64,000 nucleotides of DNA, taken from the NCBI RefSeq assembly GCF_018704065.1, contig NZ_JAGUQP010000002.1, positions 1-64,000 of the forward strand, in the 5' to 3' direction. Position 1 is the first letter of the stretch. The number at the start of each line of letters is the position of its first letter. Below, one piece after another: positions 1,577-63,735 of this stretch. The notes below the pieces were generated by a model. The model searched no databases. It was not told the DNA's origin and saw nothing but the letters and a program-made list of their open reading frames with translations. The position numbers were made by a program, and so were the translations under genes. This DNA comes from Desulfovulcanus ferrireducens. Lineage in GTDB: Bacteria > Desulfobacterota > Desulfovibrionia > Desulfovibrionales > Desulfonatronovibrionaceae.

Positions 1577-2572
1577 TCATCCGCCAATAGAAGACATAAC
1601 CCTCTGACATACACTTTGCTTGTTTTCATCCCTGGACAACAAATTATAACCCAAGGGTTTTTTTCGGCTTGTCTGTTCCAACACCTTTTTTAACTGTTCC
1701 AGACCCAGTTTCGGGGAACGTAGCAAGGGGAGCAAACGGTATTCTTTATCTGAAAACAGGCAGGTTCGAAGCTTCCCATCAGGGGTAATCCTTAAGCGGT
1801 TACACTTATCGCAAAAATGATCGCTTAGCGGAGAAATGATGCCCAATCTGCCCTGGCCCTCCTTCAATCCAAAAATTTTCGCCGGGCCACTGGTCTGACC
1901 GGCCTTCTGTTGAAGAATCAAAGGCGTAATTTTTTGTGCTGCTGTTAAAATCTCTTTTGCTGACCAGTAAAAATCCTTGTTCCACATGGTTCTGCCCCCA
2001 ATGGGCATAAACTCAATAAAACGTATATCAACCGGGTGGGTTAGAGCAAAACGGACAAAATCCTCCAGTTCATTGTCATTGACCCCTTTTAAAGCCACAA
2101 CATTTATCTTGACCCGTATTCCTTTCTCCAAACAACGATCAATACTAGTGCGCACTTTATGATAAAAATCACGCCCGGTAATTTCGATAAATTTGTCCGC
2201 ATCCAGGGTGTCTAAAGAAATATTTATACAGTTTATACCCATATCTTTTAATGCCTGAACTTTATTGGCAATTAAAGTGCCGTTGGTTGTAATGCGCAAG
2301 TCAAGAAACGGAAATTTATCACGCAACCTTGCTAAAAAATAGAGAAAATCCCTGCGTACAAAAGGCTCGCCCCCGGTCAGGCGTATCTTCTGTACCCCCA
2401 GGTCTACACAAGCCCTGATAAGTTCAAACATTTCCTCATAGGTCAGGATATTTTGATGAGAAATGAATTTTAAATACTTACAATTACGACAATAAAAACA
2501 ACGTAAATTACAACGGTCTGTCACGCTTAAGCGCAAATAACTTACACCGCGGCCATATTGATCTACAATCAT
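1577..2572 (-). CDS. moaA: GTP 3',8-cyclase MoaA (molybdopterin synthesis)
   Basis: 331 aa radical SAM enzyme for the first step of molybdenum/tungsten cofactor synthesis, the rearrangement of GTP to 3',8-cyclo-GTP. Near residues 22-29 the N-terminal 4Fe-4S motif CNLRCFYC is visible. The C-terminal cluster cysteines (FCDKCNRLR and a third Cys about 13 residues on) are present, as is the C-terminal Gly-Gly (MSSIGG). I start at 2572 because GGAGG sits 5 nt upstream; a longer reading from 2584 would begin inside that ribosome site. It fits with the tungsten-type AOR at 15-16.7 kb, which needs this cofactor. Confidence 0.95.
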   Translation of the reverse strand: MIVDQYGRGVSYLRLSVTDRCNLRCFYCRNCKYLKFISHQNILTYEEMFELIRACVDLGVQKIRLTGGEPFVRRDFLYFLARLRDKFPFLDLRITTNGTLIANKVQALKDMGINCINISLDTLDADKFIEITGRDFYHKVRTSIDRCLEKGIRVKINVVALKGVNDNELEDFVRFALTHPVDIRFIEFMPIGGRTMWNKDFYWSAKEILTAAQKITPLILQQKAGQTSGPAKIFGLKEGQGRLGIISPLSDHFCDKCNRLRITPDGKLRTCLFSDKEYRLLPLLRSPKLGLEQLKKVLEQTSRKKPLGYNLLSRDENKQSVCQRVMSSIGG

Positions 2573-2594
2573 TATATCCTCCAAACTTCAATTT

Positions 2595-3806
2595 TCAGGG
2601 CAGCATCCATTCACGTTCCGGAAACATCCCTTGAATCAAATCTGAGGAAACAAAATGTTGACTTCCCATACCTGGGTTTAAAAATAAACGTAAAGCATGC
2701 CTCAATCTCAGCCGTGAGCTGACATAAAGGTCATGTCCGAATACCGGCCTATAAACCACGCCCACCTCATCAAAATCTGATGTAAGGACACAGAGTTCAT
2801 CCTGCTCATCTTTCTTATTATCCAGAATGAATTGAATTATTGATTTATGAGTCAAATTTTCATGGCAAATAAGGTCAAAGTGACAGGGCCGCGATTCTAC
2901 ACAAGGGGCACAATGGGGCATAGCCTGAAAAACTACATGACCTTGGCCATAAGGTCCGGTTTCAAAGCACCAGGCAGAAGAAAAGAAAAAGGCCCACACA
3001 GGCACACCTAGATGAGCGGCTAAATGCATTGTTCCGGTGTCCGGCGTAACTACAGCCTCTAAACTTTGCACCAGTTGGACAAGGTCTGTCCAGCTGGTTT
3101 TTCCTGTTAGGTCTTTTACTTCAGAAATAATTTTCGGGTCGAGCAGACCCTTCAACTTCTGGGCTAAGGGCTGCTGTGCTTGGCTCCCCAAAAAATAAAT
3201 TGGGCCCTGACCAAGCCTCTTGCGCATAGCCAAAATAATAGGGGCCAAAGTCGTTAAAGGGATGGAACGCCTGGGATCACGACCAGCTATGACTACGCCA
3301 AGTCCCTTGCCCGACCGTCCCGGGACTGGGTTGACATTGACCGGTGAAACAGGATGGTCATCAAAAAAAGCCCAGTAATCAACAAGATTTATAGGTGCGG
3401 TTACTCTGTCTTTGGCCAACCGAAAAGTCAACCTTACCAATTTATCTCTAACTTCCTGTCCATGAAAATTCTGATACCCACGGACTCTGTACGGATCAAA
3501 CAGACGAATCAGGGCAAAATTCAAACCAGAAAAATTAAGGTTAACTACGAGATCAAAGTCTATCTCTTTCAGTCGGGACAGCACCTTCCTGTTTTCCATT
3601 AATATTCTGGCGGGACTGGTCTTCTGACCATGAGCCAGGATAGGATGCAAAATGACTTCCGGGTAAACCAATTCAGCCAGGCTGCTCAAAGACTTGTCCA
3701 GTACCAGGTGAACCTGCCCTTTTTGTTGTAGAGACAAGATTAGACGCTTACTCTGGATAAGATCGCCAAACCTGGCTAACTGGATGACTAAGTATTTTTT
3801 ATCCAT
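2595..3806 (-). CDS. Glycosyltransferase family 9 (heptosyltransferase-like)
   Basis: 403 aa inner-membrane-associated transferase that probably adds heptose from ADP-heptose to the LPS core. The N-terminus (MDKKYLVIQLARFGDLIQS) and the donor-site motif TPDTGTMHLAAHLGVP (about residues 255-270) are typical of the WaaC/WaaF/GT9 fold. The last 70 or so residues form an extra C-terminal tail with no recognised domain. An ADP-heptose synthesis gene lies divergently at 4036, which supports the LPS role. No Shine-Dalgarno sequence is seen at the start; moaA follows 22 bp downstream. Acceptor specificity cannot be read from sequence. Confidence 0.85.
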   Translation of the reverse strand: MDKKYLVIQLARFGDLIQSKRLILSLQQKGQVHLVLDKSLSSLAELVYPEVILHPILAHGQKTSPARILMENRKVLSRLKEIDFDLVVNLNFSGLNFALIRLFDPYRVRGYQNFHGQEVRDKLVRLTFRLAKDRVTAPINLVDYWAFFDDHPVSPVNVNPVPGRSGKGLGVVIAGRDPRRSIPLTTLAPIILAMRKRLGQGPIYFLGSQAQQPLAQKLKGLLDPKIISEVKDLTGKTSWTDLVQLVQSLEAVVTPDTGTMHLAAHLGVPVWAFFFSSAWCFETGPYGQGHVVFQAMPHCAPCVESRPCHFDLICHENLTHKSIIQFILDNKKDEQDELCVLTSDFDEVGVVYRPVFGHDLYVSSRLRLRHALRLFLNPGMGSQHFVSSDLIQGMFPEREWMLP

Positions 3807-3836
3807 GGAGGTAAACGGTTTGGGGTACGAGATACA

Positions 3837-3936
3837 GAGTCTGTGCCAAAACCATACTTAAGATACAATTTTTCATAATTTTTTTTCAATCCTGATTTCT
3901 AATCTGGTGGTCAAAATGGGGTTTGGCCACAGACTC
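3837..3936. repeat. MITE family 2, 100-bp internally deleted copy with TACA duplication
   Basis: Short derivative that keeps only both ends of the family: GAGTCTGTGCCAAAACC on the left and GGTTTGGCCACAGACTC on the right, inverted repeats of each other. It is flanked on both sides by TACA (3833-3836 and 3937-3940), which reads as a 4-bp target duplication. It sits in the divergent spacer between the GT9 gene and the heptose adenylyltransferase gene. Confidence 0.8.
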
Positions 3937-4035
3937 TACAAGTTAAGGAATGACATCAAAAGTCACCTTTCTTAATCCTTGCAGGTTGTTGATATAAGCT
4001 TTAAGGTAAAAGGTAAAGGTTTGAGGTAGAATGAA

Positions 4036-4518
4036 ATGAGAATGAATCCGAGCAGCGAAAAAATTATATCCCTGGATGATTTTTTAAAGCAAAGAGACAG
4101 GCTAACTGACAAAAAAATTGTTTTTACCAATGGTTGCTTTGATCTTCTGCATCCCGGCCATGTGGATTATTTAGAGAGAGCAAAGGCCCTGGGAGATGTG
4201 TTGGTGGTTGGCCTGAATAGTGATGAATCCGTGCGCAGGCTTAAAGGGCCAAAGCGACCCATTAATCCGGAAATGGACAGGGCCTTGGTTTTGGCAGGCC
4301 TGGGTTGCGTAAATTTTGTTATCATCTTTAGTGAAGACACTCCTTATAACCTAATCAAGGCTGTCCAGCCAGATGTCCTGGTAAAAGGTGGAGACTGGCC
4401 GATCGATAAAATCGTGGGCAAGGATATTGTTCTGGCCAAAGGGGGAGAAGTAAAAAGTCTTGATTTTTTACCTGGTTACTCCACTACCAGCTTGATTGAC
4501 AAAATAAAAAATACTTAA
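4036..4518 (+). CDS. D-glycero-beta-D-manno-heptose-1-phosphate adenylyltransferase (RfaE2/HldC type)
   Basis: 160 aa nucleotidyltransferase making ADP-heptose, the donor for LPS inner core. The [16 protein letters not shown] segment (about residues 31-46) holds the HxGH catalytic motif of the cytidylyltransferase-like fold, and the tail contains the family [11 protein letters not shown] sequence. Only the adenylyltransferase half of HldE is present, so the kinase must be a separate gene elsewhere. GAGG lies 9 nt before the chosen ATG at 4036; a second in-frame ATG at 4042 is possible. It is divergent from the heptosyltransferase-like gene across a small MITE. Confidence 0.9.
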
Positions 4519-29808: not shown

Positions 29809-30358
29809 TTTCAATTTTCGGAGTTAATTTACGGGCACATTTTCTTTAGTGCTGACAAAGGCTTGCTTGCAGGCTATGCGTAAGAGTCTGTGGCTGAACC
29901 TTTTTATCAACTTAATTTCAAAGGTTTATTTCAGTCTTGGTTTCTTTCATGCTGGAACAAAGACTTGGACCCATCTAAAACTTGCTTGCGGACAGAGCAT
30001 AATGGGTACTTTGGGTAAACAAATATTCTTTTAATTATACCTAAGTTTGGCCATTTTCACTCAATGGGTGATGAGATTGCCACGGACAGCTTCGCTGCCC
30101 TCGCAATGACGAACTCGCTCCTGTCATTGCGAGTGGAACAAAGTGTAGCGAAGCAATCTCAAAGTTTGAACTGCAAAAAATCGCTCAATTTAAACTATAG
30201 ATAGGTATGGTCAGTATCGCAAAATATTCAGTCCATTCATCCCAATGCTCTGTTTTCTGCAAGCAAAACTCAAGATTGGGTTATCCAAGTCGTTTGTAAT
30301 GCATTTCAGAAACCAGGACTTTCAATCAGCGGTTAAAATGTGGTTTGGCCACAGACTC
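29809..30358. repeat. Composite: family 1 fragment followed by full-length family 2 MITE (29884-30358)
   Basis: 29809-29880 is a diverged, truncated start of family 1 (GAGTTAATTT...CTTGCTTGC). From 29884 runs a complete 475-bp family 2 element, with left end GAGTCTGTGGCTGAACC and right end GGTTTGGCCACAGACTC (30342-30358). It carries the nested palindromic unit at about 30044-30190, containing the paired CGCAATGACG and TCATTGCGAG arms. No clear target duplication. It fills most of the recN/glycosyltransferase spacer. Confidence 0.85.
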
Positions 30359-60343: not shown

Positions 60344-61162
60344 CTAGATGTTTGGCTCACTAAAGTAAGGGCATTTCATGCCTCGACATCCATGTGGATG
60401 CTGGTTGATAGAGTTACATTGAATAGGGGTCGAAGGCAGCATAAGACAGATTTTAAAGTTATCTTTCAAAAAATGCACAGCGTTTTCCAGAGCTGTTCGA
60501 ACATAAGCTTTGCAACAACTCGGTCCTGTTAACTCTGTAATAGCATGAACAATTTTTGAAACCACTTCCATAGTCAATCTCTGTTCTTTATCCGTTCCAC
60601 ATTTAGAACCAAGCAGGATAGAAAAACAAGCACCAATGGCAGGTACAATGCCGCAAACCCCTGTTAACCCACAATAACCACCTATAGCTTGCCGTTCTGT
60701 GCGGTTGAATGCTTCTTCAATTTGTTCGTCAGCGACTCTTATAGTCCCTTCATTCCGAATAGCAGTCATTAAAGCTCCTGCTGCAACAAAGGCATGGTGA
60801 CATCCAAGCATAGGAAATTGAGAGAGAGCCATTATTTGCTCTGCAATCTCAAAAGGATTTTTAGATTTGGCCGACAAACAAATTTCTTTGATTGTTTTTA
60901 TAGCTTGTTGATTGTGGCATATATCGCAAACATAATGGTTGTTTGGGCAACGAATATGACCTGTTTCAAGTCTGCCACAACTGGAGCATTGCAGCTCTAC
61001 GGCATGATTGAGGTATTCTAATTGAGACCCACATACCATACAGTTTTTTATGTTGTCCCCAGAATCAGTTTGGACAGAAGAGCCAGTATAAACCCGACCG
61101 GATTTGTTAGCTGGTTGCGCTCAACAACTTGTGCCGTTTTTTATTTTTTTATTTTCTATCAT
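60344..61162 (-). CDS. DUF5714-like cysteine-rich protein, candidate selenoprotein (Sec14)
   Basis: 272 aa if the in-frame UGA at 61123-61121 is read as selenocysteine; 231 aa if started at 61039. The upstream start (ATG 61162, AAGGAG 11 nt before) gives MIENKKIKNGTSC-U-AQPANK. It restores the first Cys of a zinc ribbon, CMVCG (41-45), which the shorter form loses. Other Cys pairs are CSSC and CDIC. The core QAIGGYCGLTGVCGIVPAIG with SKCGTD is the signature I recall for DUF5714 proteins. A SECIS-like hairpin follows the UGA. Function unknown; Cys-Sec suggests redox or metal chemistry. The AhpD-like gene lies upstream on the same strand. Confidence 0.75.
61083..61123 (-). promoter_or_regulatory. 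Candidate bacterial SECIS element with UGA codon
   Basis: UGA at 61123-61121, then a stem: lower CCAG/CUGG, two pairs UA/UA, and upper AAAUCC/GGGUUU closing on the tetraloop GGUC (61099-61096). The loop begins 21 nt after UGA, against 18 nt in E. coli fdhF, whose loop also begins GGUC. This meets the known layout rules for bacterial SECIS hairpins. Confidence 0.65.
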
Positions 61163-61182
61163 ATCCTTCTTTACTCCTTAGA

Positions 61183-61498
61183 AAGTTTTAGGCCAAACTC
61201 TACTCAGAGGACAATTTTACATAATTTTTTTCAATCCTGATTTCTTTCATGCTGGTGCAAATGCCTGGACCCATCTATAGCTTGCTTGCGGGCAGAGCAT
61301 AATGGGGCATTTAGGATAAATGAATATTCTTTTTGTTGTCGATAGTTATGGCAAATAGTTCCAGATACTTAGCTTTGTCATCCCGATGCTCTGCTTATCC
61401 GCAAGCTTAGCCAAGATGGCTTACCCAGCCCTTTGCAATGCTTTCAAGAAACCAGGATTTCTAATCTGGTAGTCAAAATGGGGTTTGGCCACAGACTC
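61183..61498. repeat. MITE family 2 copy between the DUF5714-like and AhpD-like genes
   Basis: About 316 bp, without the nested palindrome. Right end GGTTTGGCCACAGACTC (61482-61498) is perfect; the left end (GTTTTAGGCCAAAC near 61186) is decayed. Its left edge is just 20 bp upstream of the start codon of the candidate selenoprotein gene. Confidence 0.78.
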
Positions 61499-61595
61499 TA
61501 GAAAGCCAAAGGCTAACGTGACAGGCAGGCTAGGACTCCAGCTTTGTTATTAGATCTTCTTCGAAACCCAGCAAAATTAAAAATTTATTTATGGT

Positions 61596-61919
61596 TTATT
61601 TTTGACAATCACATTTTATGTTTCCTGCAATTATTTCTTTCCAGTCTCCGATCACATCATGAGTCCAACAATCGTCTGCTCCGGCCGCCTCTCTCATAAC
61701 TAGAGCAAGGATATATGCTAATTCCTTGACAGTAGCTCCAGCTTCCAAGGCTCCCTTGAAATGTTTTAGAACGCAAGGCTTGGATCGGGCCTTAATCGAA
61801 AGTGCAAAACAGATGAATTGGTAGGTCTTTTCATCGATCATCCGTTTCTCTTGGTAGAGGTTATCCATTTTATCCAGCAATTCAGAGAATTCCGGAAAAA
61901 ATTCAGCCAACATTCTCAT
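61596..61919 (-). CDS. Carboxymuconolactone decarboxylase/AhpD-like protein
   Basis: 107 aa all-helical CMD-family protein. The active-site region reads SKPCVLKHFKGALEAGAT: the second Cys (Cys49) and His53 of the CxxCxxxH redox motif are present, but the first Cys is Ser46. It ends in CDCQK, which might supply another thiol. GGAGG lies 8 nt before the ATG. Probably a peroxidase-related or thiol protein. Confidence 0.85.
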   Translation of the reverse strand: MRMLAEFFPEFSELLDKMDNLYQEKRMIDEKTYQFICFALSIKARSKPCVLKHFKGALEAGATVKELAYILALVMREAAGADDCWTHDVIGDWKEIIAGNIKCDCQK

Positions 61920-62113: not shown

Positions 62114-62590
62114 GGTATTTCTGTGGTCAAACCTTACTTAAGAGGCCAACTTTTCATAATTTATTTCAGTCCTGGTTTCTTTCATGCTGGTACAAAGACT
62201 TGGACCCATCTATATTTTGCTTGCGGACAGAGCATAATGGTGTACTTTGGATAAACGAATAGACTTTTAATTATACCTAAGTTGAGCGATTTTCACTCAA
62301 TGGGTGAGATTGCCACGGACAGCTTCGCTGCCCTCGCAATGACAATCTCGCCCCTGTCATTGCGACTGGAACAAAGTGTAGCGAAGCAATCTCAAAGTTT
62401 GAACTGCAAAAAAATCGCTCATAAATTTTAGATAGTTGCGGTAAGTCTCGCAACATATTTAGCCCATTCATCCCGATGCTCTGTCTTTCCGCAAGCAAAG
62501 TTCAAGAGTGGGTTACCCAAGCCGTTTATAATGCATTTCAGAAACCAAGACTTTCAACCAGCGGTTAAAATGGGGTTTGGCCACAGACTC
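62114..62590. repeat. Full-length MITE family 2 copy with nested palindrome
   Basis: About 477 bp, right end GGTTTGGCCACAGACTC (62574-62590), left end CTGTGGTCAAACC (62121 on). The nested unit is at about 62281-62420. The stretch 61920-62113 before it holds only the leader of the AhpD-like gene; no other gene seen. Confidence 0.83.
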
Positions 62591-62751
62591 TAAGCGCTTG
62601 CGGTTTTTTTCTTGCCGGATTGTGAATAATTGTATTAATAATTTATTTTCGGCTAGGCTCAAGTTTTTTTTATTCTATCAGACAGAAGCATCAGGCTTTT
62701 CGTGGAATGAAAAACAAAAAATTAAATATTATGATAAAAGAGTCGCGAATT

Positions 62752-63735
62752 ATGAATCACGAATTACGCACCATAGGCCTTGTTCGTTCACCCGTCAAAG
62801 ACCCAGGGCAGTGTCCCAAGCAGGGCGATGCAAAATGCCCCAAAGTATGGATCGAGATTTTCCCGCAATATGCTGAAGCTCTCGATTGTCTATCCCCTGA
62901 TCAGGAAATAATTGTCCTTACCTGGCTGCACATGGCCAGGCGGGATGTCTTGCGCTGCCATCCGAGAGACAATCCTAATATTCCCCTGCATGGAGTTTTT
63001 GCCACCAGATCTCCGGATCGGCCAAATCCCATCGGCCTTCATCAGGTGCGTATCATTGATACTGATGGGAACAGACTTTTGGTGCATCCCTTAGAAGTTG
63101 TGGACCAAACTCCAATTATAGATATCAAGCCGGTTCTTCAACCTAAAAAAGATGATGCTGGCATTGGAGTCTACTTTCCAATGCATCTGGTTCAGGATTT
63201 GATCCGAGGTGCTAGGACTGCCTGGGATAAAGGCCTTTTGAATGGTTTTAACGGCAATTTAAGCCTGCGCGAGAACAATCGCATGCTCATCACCAATTCC
63301 GGAGCGGCCAAGGGCCACCTAAGAGTTTCTGACTTATCTGTCTTAGATGTCGAGTCAGGTCGCCTCTTAAACAAAGGCTTTCCCTCGTCAGAAACCCCCA
63401 TGCATTTGGAAATCTATCGCCAGCAAAAAAATGCCCAGGCTATTGTGCATACTCACCCCCCGCATTTGTTGGCGCTGTCTTTGCTCAAACATGATATGCT
63501 AGATTTACCTCTTTTTGAGGCCGAGATGTTTAAGGCTCAAATGGCCACGGTTCCTGCACTAAAACCTGGCAGCAAAGACTTGGCCTTGGCTGTGGGCCAG
63601 AAGGCAAAAGCAAAAAAGTGTATTTTCTTACAGAGGCATGGCCTTATTTGTTGGGGAGAAAGGATAGAGGAAGCCTTGGCCTTAAGTGAGGAATTAGAGG
63701 CATTGGCCAGGATAGAGATTTATAGCCGGAGATAA
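62752..63735 (+). CDS. TrmO-class II aldolase fusion protein
   Basis: 327 aa from ATG 62752. Residues 1-130 are a TsaA/TrmO domain (IGLVRSPVKDP, HGVFATRSPDRPNPIGLHQV), which methylates N6-threonylcarbamoyl-A37 of tRNA. Residues 140-327 are a class II aldolase/adducin domain with its zinc ligands intact (HTHPPH, QRHGLI) and the catalytic Glu in SSETPMHLE. The joined reactions seem unrelated. The start is uncertain: ATGs at 62707 and 62731 are in frame, none has a clear ribosome site, and the region carries GAATCACGAATTACG repeat DNA. Confidence 0.88.
   Translation: MNHELRTIGLVRSPVKDPGQCPKQGDAKCPKVWIEIFPQYAEALDCLSPDQEIIVLTWLHMARRDVLRCHPRDNPNIPLHGVFATRSPDRPNPIGLHQVRIIDTDGNRLLVHPLEVVDQTPIIDIKPVLQPKKDDAGIGVYFPMHLVQDLIRGARTAWDKGLLNGFNGNLSLRENNRMLITNSGAAKGHLRVSDLSVLDVESGRLLNKGFPSSETPMHLEIYRQQKNAQAIVHTHPPHLLALSLLKHDMLDLPLFEAEMFKAQMATVPALKPGSKDLALAVGQKAKAKKCIFLQRHGLICWGERIEEALALSEELEALARIEIYSRR

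Follow-up and report, generated by a model that had tools for sequence, protein, structure and literature searches.

The window analysed here, a 64,000-nucleotide stretch of DNA from Desulfovulcanus ferrireducens, carries on its minus strand a reading frame that extends from an ATG at 61162 to a TAG at 60346-60344, and whose sole interruption is a TGA at 61123-61121. Thirteen codons precede this TGA, and the last of them encodes Cys13 (MIENKKIKNGTSC). The features of the locus are as follows.

60344-61162, minus strand: gene of 272 codons followed by TAG, very probably encoding a selenoprotein, in a short form of MbdU
61174-61179, minus strand: likely ribosome-binding site AAGGAG, 11 nt ahead of the ATG at 61162, read directly
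61160-61162, minus strand: predicted start codon ATG, read directly and compared with homologues
61121-61123, minus strand: in-frame TGA, codon 14, very probably read as selenocysteine (Cys13-Sec14)
61090-61105, minus strand: upper hairpin of the putative SECIS element, formed by AAATCC (61105-61100), the loop GGTC (61099-61096) and GGGTTT (61095-61090)
61037-61039, minus strand: internal ATG, a probable mis-annotated start, rejected here, with other residues at this place in homologues
61596-61919, minus strand: CMD/AhpD-like gene of 107 aa, upstream, 433 bp away, a possible functional partner

A first-pass annotation of this DNA had already described the gene, and on re-reading its frame, coordinates, sequence, the Cys before the TGA and the AAGGAG at 61179-61174 all proved exact. 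The product would be composed of an N-terminal Cys-Sec tail, zinc-ribbon-like Cys pairs and a DUF5714 domain (Pfam PF18978, residues 91-267, 177.5 bits for a gathering cut-off of 26.2). Its single match in NCBIfam is NF045648, 'metal-binding double selenoprotein MbdU' (E 1.6e-113, 380 bits), which aligns residues 7-269 with positions 2-268 of the 468-position profile and passes through the UGA.

That translation begins at ATG 61162 is supported by comparison with homologous sequences. Indeed, in a homologue from the same family (L061) the Met stands nearly equally far from the Sec (METKKINSTSGGCU). A mechanical ORF call gives 60344-61039 instead, i.e. a start at ATG 61039, and the TGA would then be the plain stop of a short upstream frame. 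We consider this start very unlikely. It would remove the first Cys of C41-x2-C44, a CxxC that homologues keep, as the first-pass annotation had correctly stated; no ribosome-binding site is seen at 61039; and the ATG, which had been raised there as the competing start, is not conserved, homologues having L, T, F, S or I where it encodes Met. Moreover, the NF045648 match takes in the upstream part, and homologue codons ahead of this point are under purifying selection, with a pN/pS of 0.33 ahead of the UGA (p 8e-4, five homologue pairs) and of 0.40 from the UGA to the zinc ribbon (p 2e-5, four homologue pairs, the pair L034/L029 being left out for its internal deletion). Purifying selection on either side of the UGA thus indicates that both parts are translated in this frame, starting in all likelihood from ATG 61162.

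The genome of D. ferrireducens (2.59 Mb, 98.6% complete, a 60-contig assembly) possesses the means to insert selenocysteine. All four sel genes to which the earlier annotation had pointed were found: selC, the tRNA-Sec gene (83.1 bits, contig C39), selB (409.8 bits, contig C17), selA (632 bits, contig C15) and selD (L019, G000:C5:70624-71550); the organism is therefore a Sec user. The selD gene has one in-frame TGA of its own, so that SelD itself is probably a selenoprotein. Reading of TGA as another residue through a changed genetic code occurs in other bacteria. In the present case the chance that the TGA stands for tryptophan, or is otherwise reassigned, appears negligible, as the genome encodes tRNA-Sec and a complete Sec pathway, the residue always sits beside a Cys (CU or UC), and Sec is the residue assigned to it in the curated family.

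Selenocysteine decoding finds further support in homologues. Among 18 other loci with the same N-terminal tail, from several phyla, the motif is CU in 17 (with TGA taken as U: L061, L034, L024, L023, L025, L032, L033, L028, L026, L027, L036, L039, L038, L035, L029, L044 and L040) and UC in one; three loci that end at a contig end and are unscorable (L030, L041, L042) are outside this count. The exception, L043 (G383, from about 1416), shows the inverted motif, Sec-Cys (GUC) in place of Cys-Sec. A short CU form of 257 aa, beginning MIDKTSHVGGCU, is also encoded on a circular closed record of Acetoanaerobium noterae (Bacillota). An N-terminal Cys-Sec pair, for which homologues were to be compared, is thus present in them. 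The N-terminus of L037 differs and is without the CU motif, and we found no stand-alone homologue with plain Cys-Cys exactly at the position of Cys13-Sec14; in fused relatives, CC pairs sit in a linker and can be aligned with Cys13-Sec14 only without confidence.

A check of 20 genomes for tRNA-Sec found it, at 69 bits or above, in every one of the 11 in which the CU or UC form occurs. In the genome of L037 (G004), whose homologue lacks the motif, the best tRNA-Sec score is 48.8 bits, the level of an ordinary tRNA. Five genomes with distant DUF5714 proteins (G052, G209, G252, G266 and G324) have tRNA-Sec as well, so that the correlation between motif and tRNA-Sec is consistent with selenocysteine and is not a strong test of it.

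The same comparison bears on the possibility that a Cys or Trp codon was turned into TGA by a nonsense mutation or misread in sequencing. A single base change suffices to convert TGC, TGT or TGG to TGA, and the genome is assembled in 60 contigs. Conservation already refutes this explanation, to which we give practically no weight: the same Cys-TGA recurs in the 17 other loci of several phyla and in the circular closed record, and the hairpin behind it covaries.

This hairpin, whose GGUC loop lies 21 nt downstream of the UGA, has an unremarkable folding energy when this one sequence is folded singly (z between -0.9 and +0.4); on its own it is weak evidence, and covariation is needed. Twelve sequences share the register, with a six-pair stem, a loop that is mostly GGUC and a distance of 21 nt past the UGA. 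In these, 91.7% of stem cells are paired versus 47.2% when shuffled, a level that 0 of 500 shuffles attained; 34 stem cells changed on both sides versus 14.4 in shuffled data, and each of the six pairs covaries. Covariation scores 1.131 versus 0.282, and at most 0.37 when the partners are slid by 1-3 columns. A similar hairpin occurs one codon closer to the UGA in L023, L025, L035 and L036; in L043 the loop is AGTA; and neither Acetoanaerobium nor L040 shows an evident hairpin of the GGUC type. An Rfam search of the region returned nothing credible. Comparison across homologues thus supports the hairpin as the putative SECIS element of this UGA.

With its 4-nt loop bearing GG in positions 1-2, its 6-bp upper stem and its distance of 21 nt from the UGA, the element falls within the published model of bacterial SECIS elements of the E. 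coli fdhF type, from which it differs in having no conserved lower stem. The first-pass annotation had proposed a stem in two parts. The inner part (AAATCC/GGGTTT closing on GGUC at 21 nt) holds, while the outer CCAG/CUGG is peculiar to this sequence: across homologues 16.7% of it is paired versus 18.8% in shuffled data, and we rejected it as a part of the SECIS element.

Taken together, the sel genes, the CU/UC homologues, the purifying selection and the SECIS covariation strongly support the earlier proposal that the UGA specifies selenocysteine, and we hold with high confidence that it is decoded so, in a protein of the MbdU type that ordinary gene calling would shorten. The accompanying claim, that the family was not established as one of selenoproteins, fails. 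The protein matches, over residues 7-269, the catalogued MbdU (NF045648), which the citing passage of a 2026 review lists as a selenoprotein carrying two Sec and the motif CU (Haft and Tolstoy 2025, cited in PMC13188914); given this match and this listing, the family is an established, predicted selenoprotein family. In the literature searched we found no mention of DUF5714 by name. Measured against the MbdU description as conveyed by the citing review, what would be new here is only the short form, with a single Sec and DUF5714 alone.

The window protein shares with MbdU the Cys-Sec N-terminal tail, the zinc-ribbon-like region and DUF5714. Unlike MbdU, it corresponds to the DUF5714 half alone with one Sec, has neither the DUF2284 half nor the second Sec, and scores 380 bits where the NF045648 cut-off is 600; for these reasons we regard it as a short relative and not as a double MbdU. 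A full-length MbdU, L023 from a Nitrospirota metagenome-assembled genome, reaches 764.6 bits and has DUF5714 and DUF2284 with one UGA per half. One could thus suppose that the window gene is a fragment of such a double protein, mutation or assembly having recently removed the DUF2284 half. This is highly improbable. The convergent thiL gene lies only some 95 bp beyond the TAG, too close for a DUF2284 half to fit between them, and short forms, sharing the end motif HPHGC...CPY, are the rule. Moreover, none of 395 genomes of the same phylum has an NF045648 match over the cut-off, many matches there being shorter, and the window's own genome has this one match and no second. We are therefore left with what is, very probably, a functional gene for a short-form MbdU-family protein, with one DUF5714 and one selenocysteine.

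DUF5714 also occurs in proteins of about 1000 aa in which it is fused to radical SAM and ArsM-like parts. These share the domain with the window protein but were not seen to carry a Cys-UGA tail at this place, and the tree separates the CU group from fused or more distant DUF5714 proteins with full support.

The MbdU model catches the double form only: 0 of 395 genomes exceed its cut-off, versus 11 sampled genomes in which a form with a CU or UC tail is encoded (ten of the 395 and one of the same family as D. ferrireducens). Since the window protein scores below the cut-off, ATG 61039 is probably the start that rule-based annotation would choose, at the cost of the selenocysteine.

No solved relative was found by sequence; the hits, to a 30-residue stretch of viral haemagglutinins (E 0.2 or worse), are chance matches. 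A model predicted from nine sequences (mean pLDDT 72.8, with residues 1-37 under 50) consists of a helical domain and, at the Cys pairs, a small beta portion. Foldseek with this model returned no match under E 0.001. The best structural match is the [4Fe-4S] cysteine desulfidase CyuA (Z 7.3, 139 residues, 4.6 A), and L-serine dehydratase gives Z 5.2; according to the tool's own note, a Z under 8 may reflect only a common helical arrangement. These matches raise the question whether DUF5714 could be an iron-sulfur enzyme with the fold of L-serine dehydratase and CyuA, and not a metal(loid) carrier. Profile comparison with CyuA lines up the cysteine-containing stretches roughly, at a probability of 2%. 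Kinship with serine dehydratase is unsupported, its profiles scoring like reversed controls. We thus consider an enzyme of this kind unlikely, while giving it clearly more weight than any of the rivals discussed above.

The carrier reading draws on gene neighbourhoods. ArsR-like regulators, named from reading the sequences, lie upstream in 8 loci, and in L068 the CU-DUF5714 gene adjoins a 1039-aa radical SAM / ArsM-like / DUF5714 protein. The ArsM-like, ArsR, CMD/AhpD and DUF2284 neighbours and fusions point to metalloid chemistry. No obvious arsenic operon surrounds the gene within the window, and its CMD/AhpD-like neighbour has SKPC, without UGA, where selenoprotein relatives have CxxU.

Several relatives adjoin further UGA frames of the TsoA type (NF045695) and of the CxxU AhpD/CMD type (as in NF041537), families different from that of the window selenoprotein. 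In L024 a CMD/AhpD-like gene (3794-4100) with GAGCQPUTQYC, i.e. a CxxU site, lies directly 3' of the CU-DUF5714 gene. L026 encodes a DUF5714-CMD fusion (2103-3278), unlike MbdU in architecture, that contains three UGAs: one in the CU tail, one at the CxxU site of the CMD domain and one close to the end (CSFUT). A UGA-interrupted gene, with EYU or EHU and then I-x-EC, stands just upstream of CU-DUF5714 in five loci (L023 2050-2712, L024 2444-3121, L026 about 1348-2100, L027 about 1822-2490, and L062 on the minus strand), and reads through as MVEYU-INECTDSGVNP... Against TsoA, the L062 copy scores 93.5 bits, short of the cut-off (170 bits), so that it may be a divergent selenoprotein of the TsoA type. 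A TsoA search of the window's own genome gave no match, though the control gave no match anywhere either.

From these neighbours and fusions only, a metal(loid) role of the Cys-Sec tail and the Cys-rich domain can be put forward as a tentative proposal. Recognition of the hairpin would let SelB with Sec-tRNA read the UGA, and the mobile N-terminal tail would carry a vicinal thiol/selenol pair, Cys13-Sec14. Together with the nearby Cys pairs and the invariant cysteines of DUF5714, this pair could bind or reduce a soft metal or metalloid, perhaps arsenic, and might hand it to a partner enzyme, for instance an ArsM-like methyltransferase, or receive it from one.

In a broader reading, which we advance as possible and somewhat short of even odds, the stand-alone, single-Sec DUF5714 proteins (about 250-290 aa, with a CU tail) would form a selenoprotein subfamily that occurs in at least two phyla and is separate from double MbdU, and would serve as selenolate metal(loid) carriers for ArsM-type chemistry; since the MbdU model requires the two halves together, current rule-based annotation would overlook them. 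Given how widely the short form occurs, the covariation in its SECIS element and its links with ArsM, ArsR, AhpD/CMD and TsoA-like selenoproteins, the hypothesis of a selenoprotein that handles metal(loid)s can be put to the test.

Two other features of the window were recorded. A MITE-like element occupies 61191-61500 and stops 29 bp short of the selenoprotein gene's start; this dispersed repeat of about 310 bp recurs in the genome in some 40 copies that are 78-94% identical, and its ends are inverted (GAGTCTGTGGCCAAACC). Further sites of the end repeat lie in the window at 3920-3936, 30342-30358 and 62574-62590, and 127 are found genome-wide with up to one mismatch, versus 0 for the reversed control. 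On the plus strand, at 62707-63735, a single frame of 342 aa fuses a TrmO-like domain to a class II aldolase domain.
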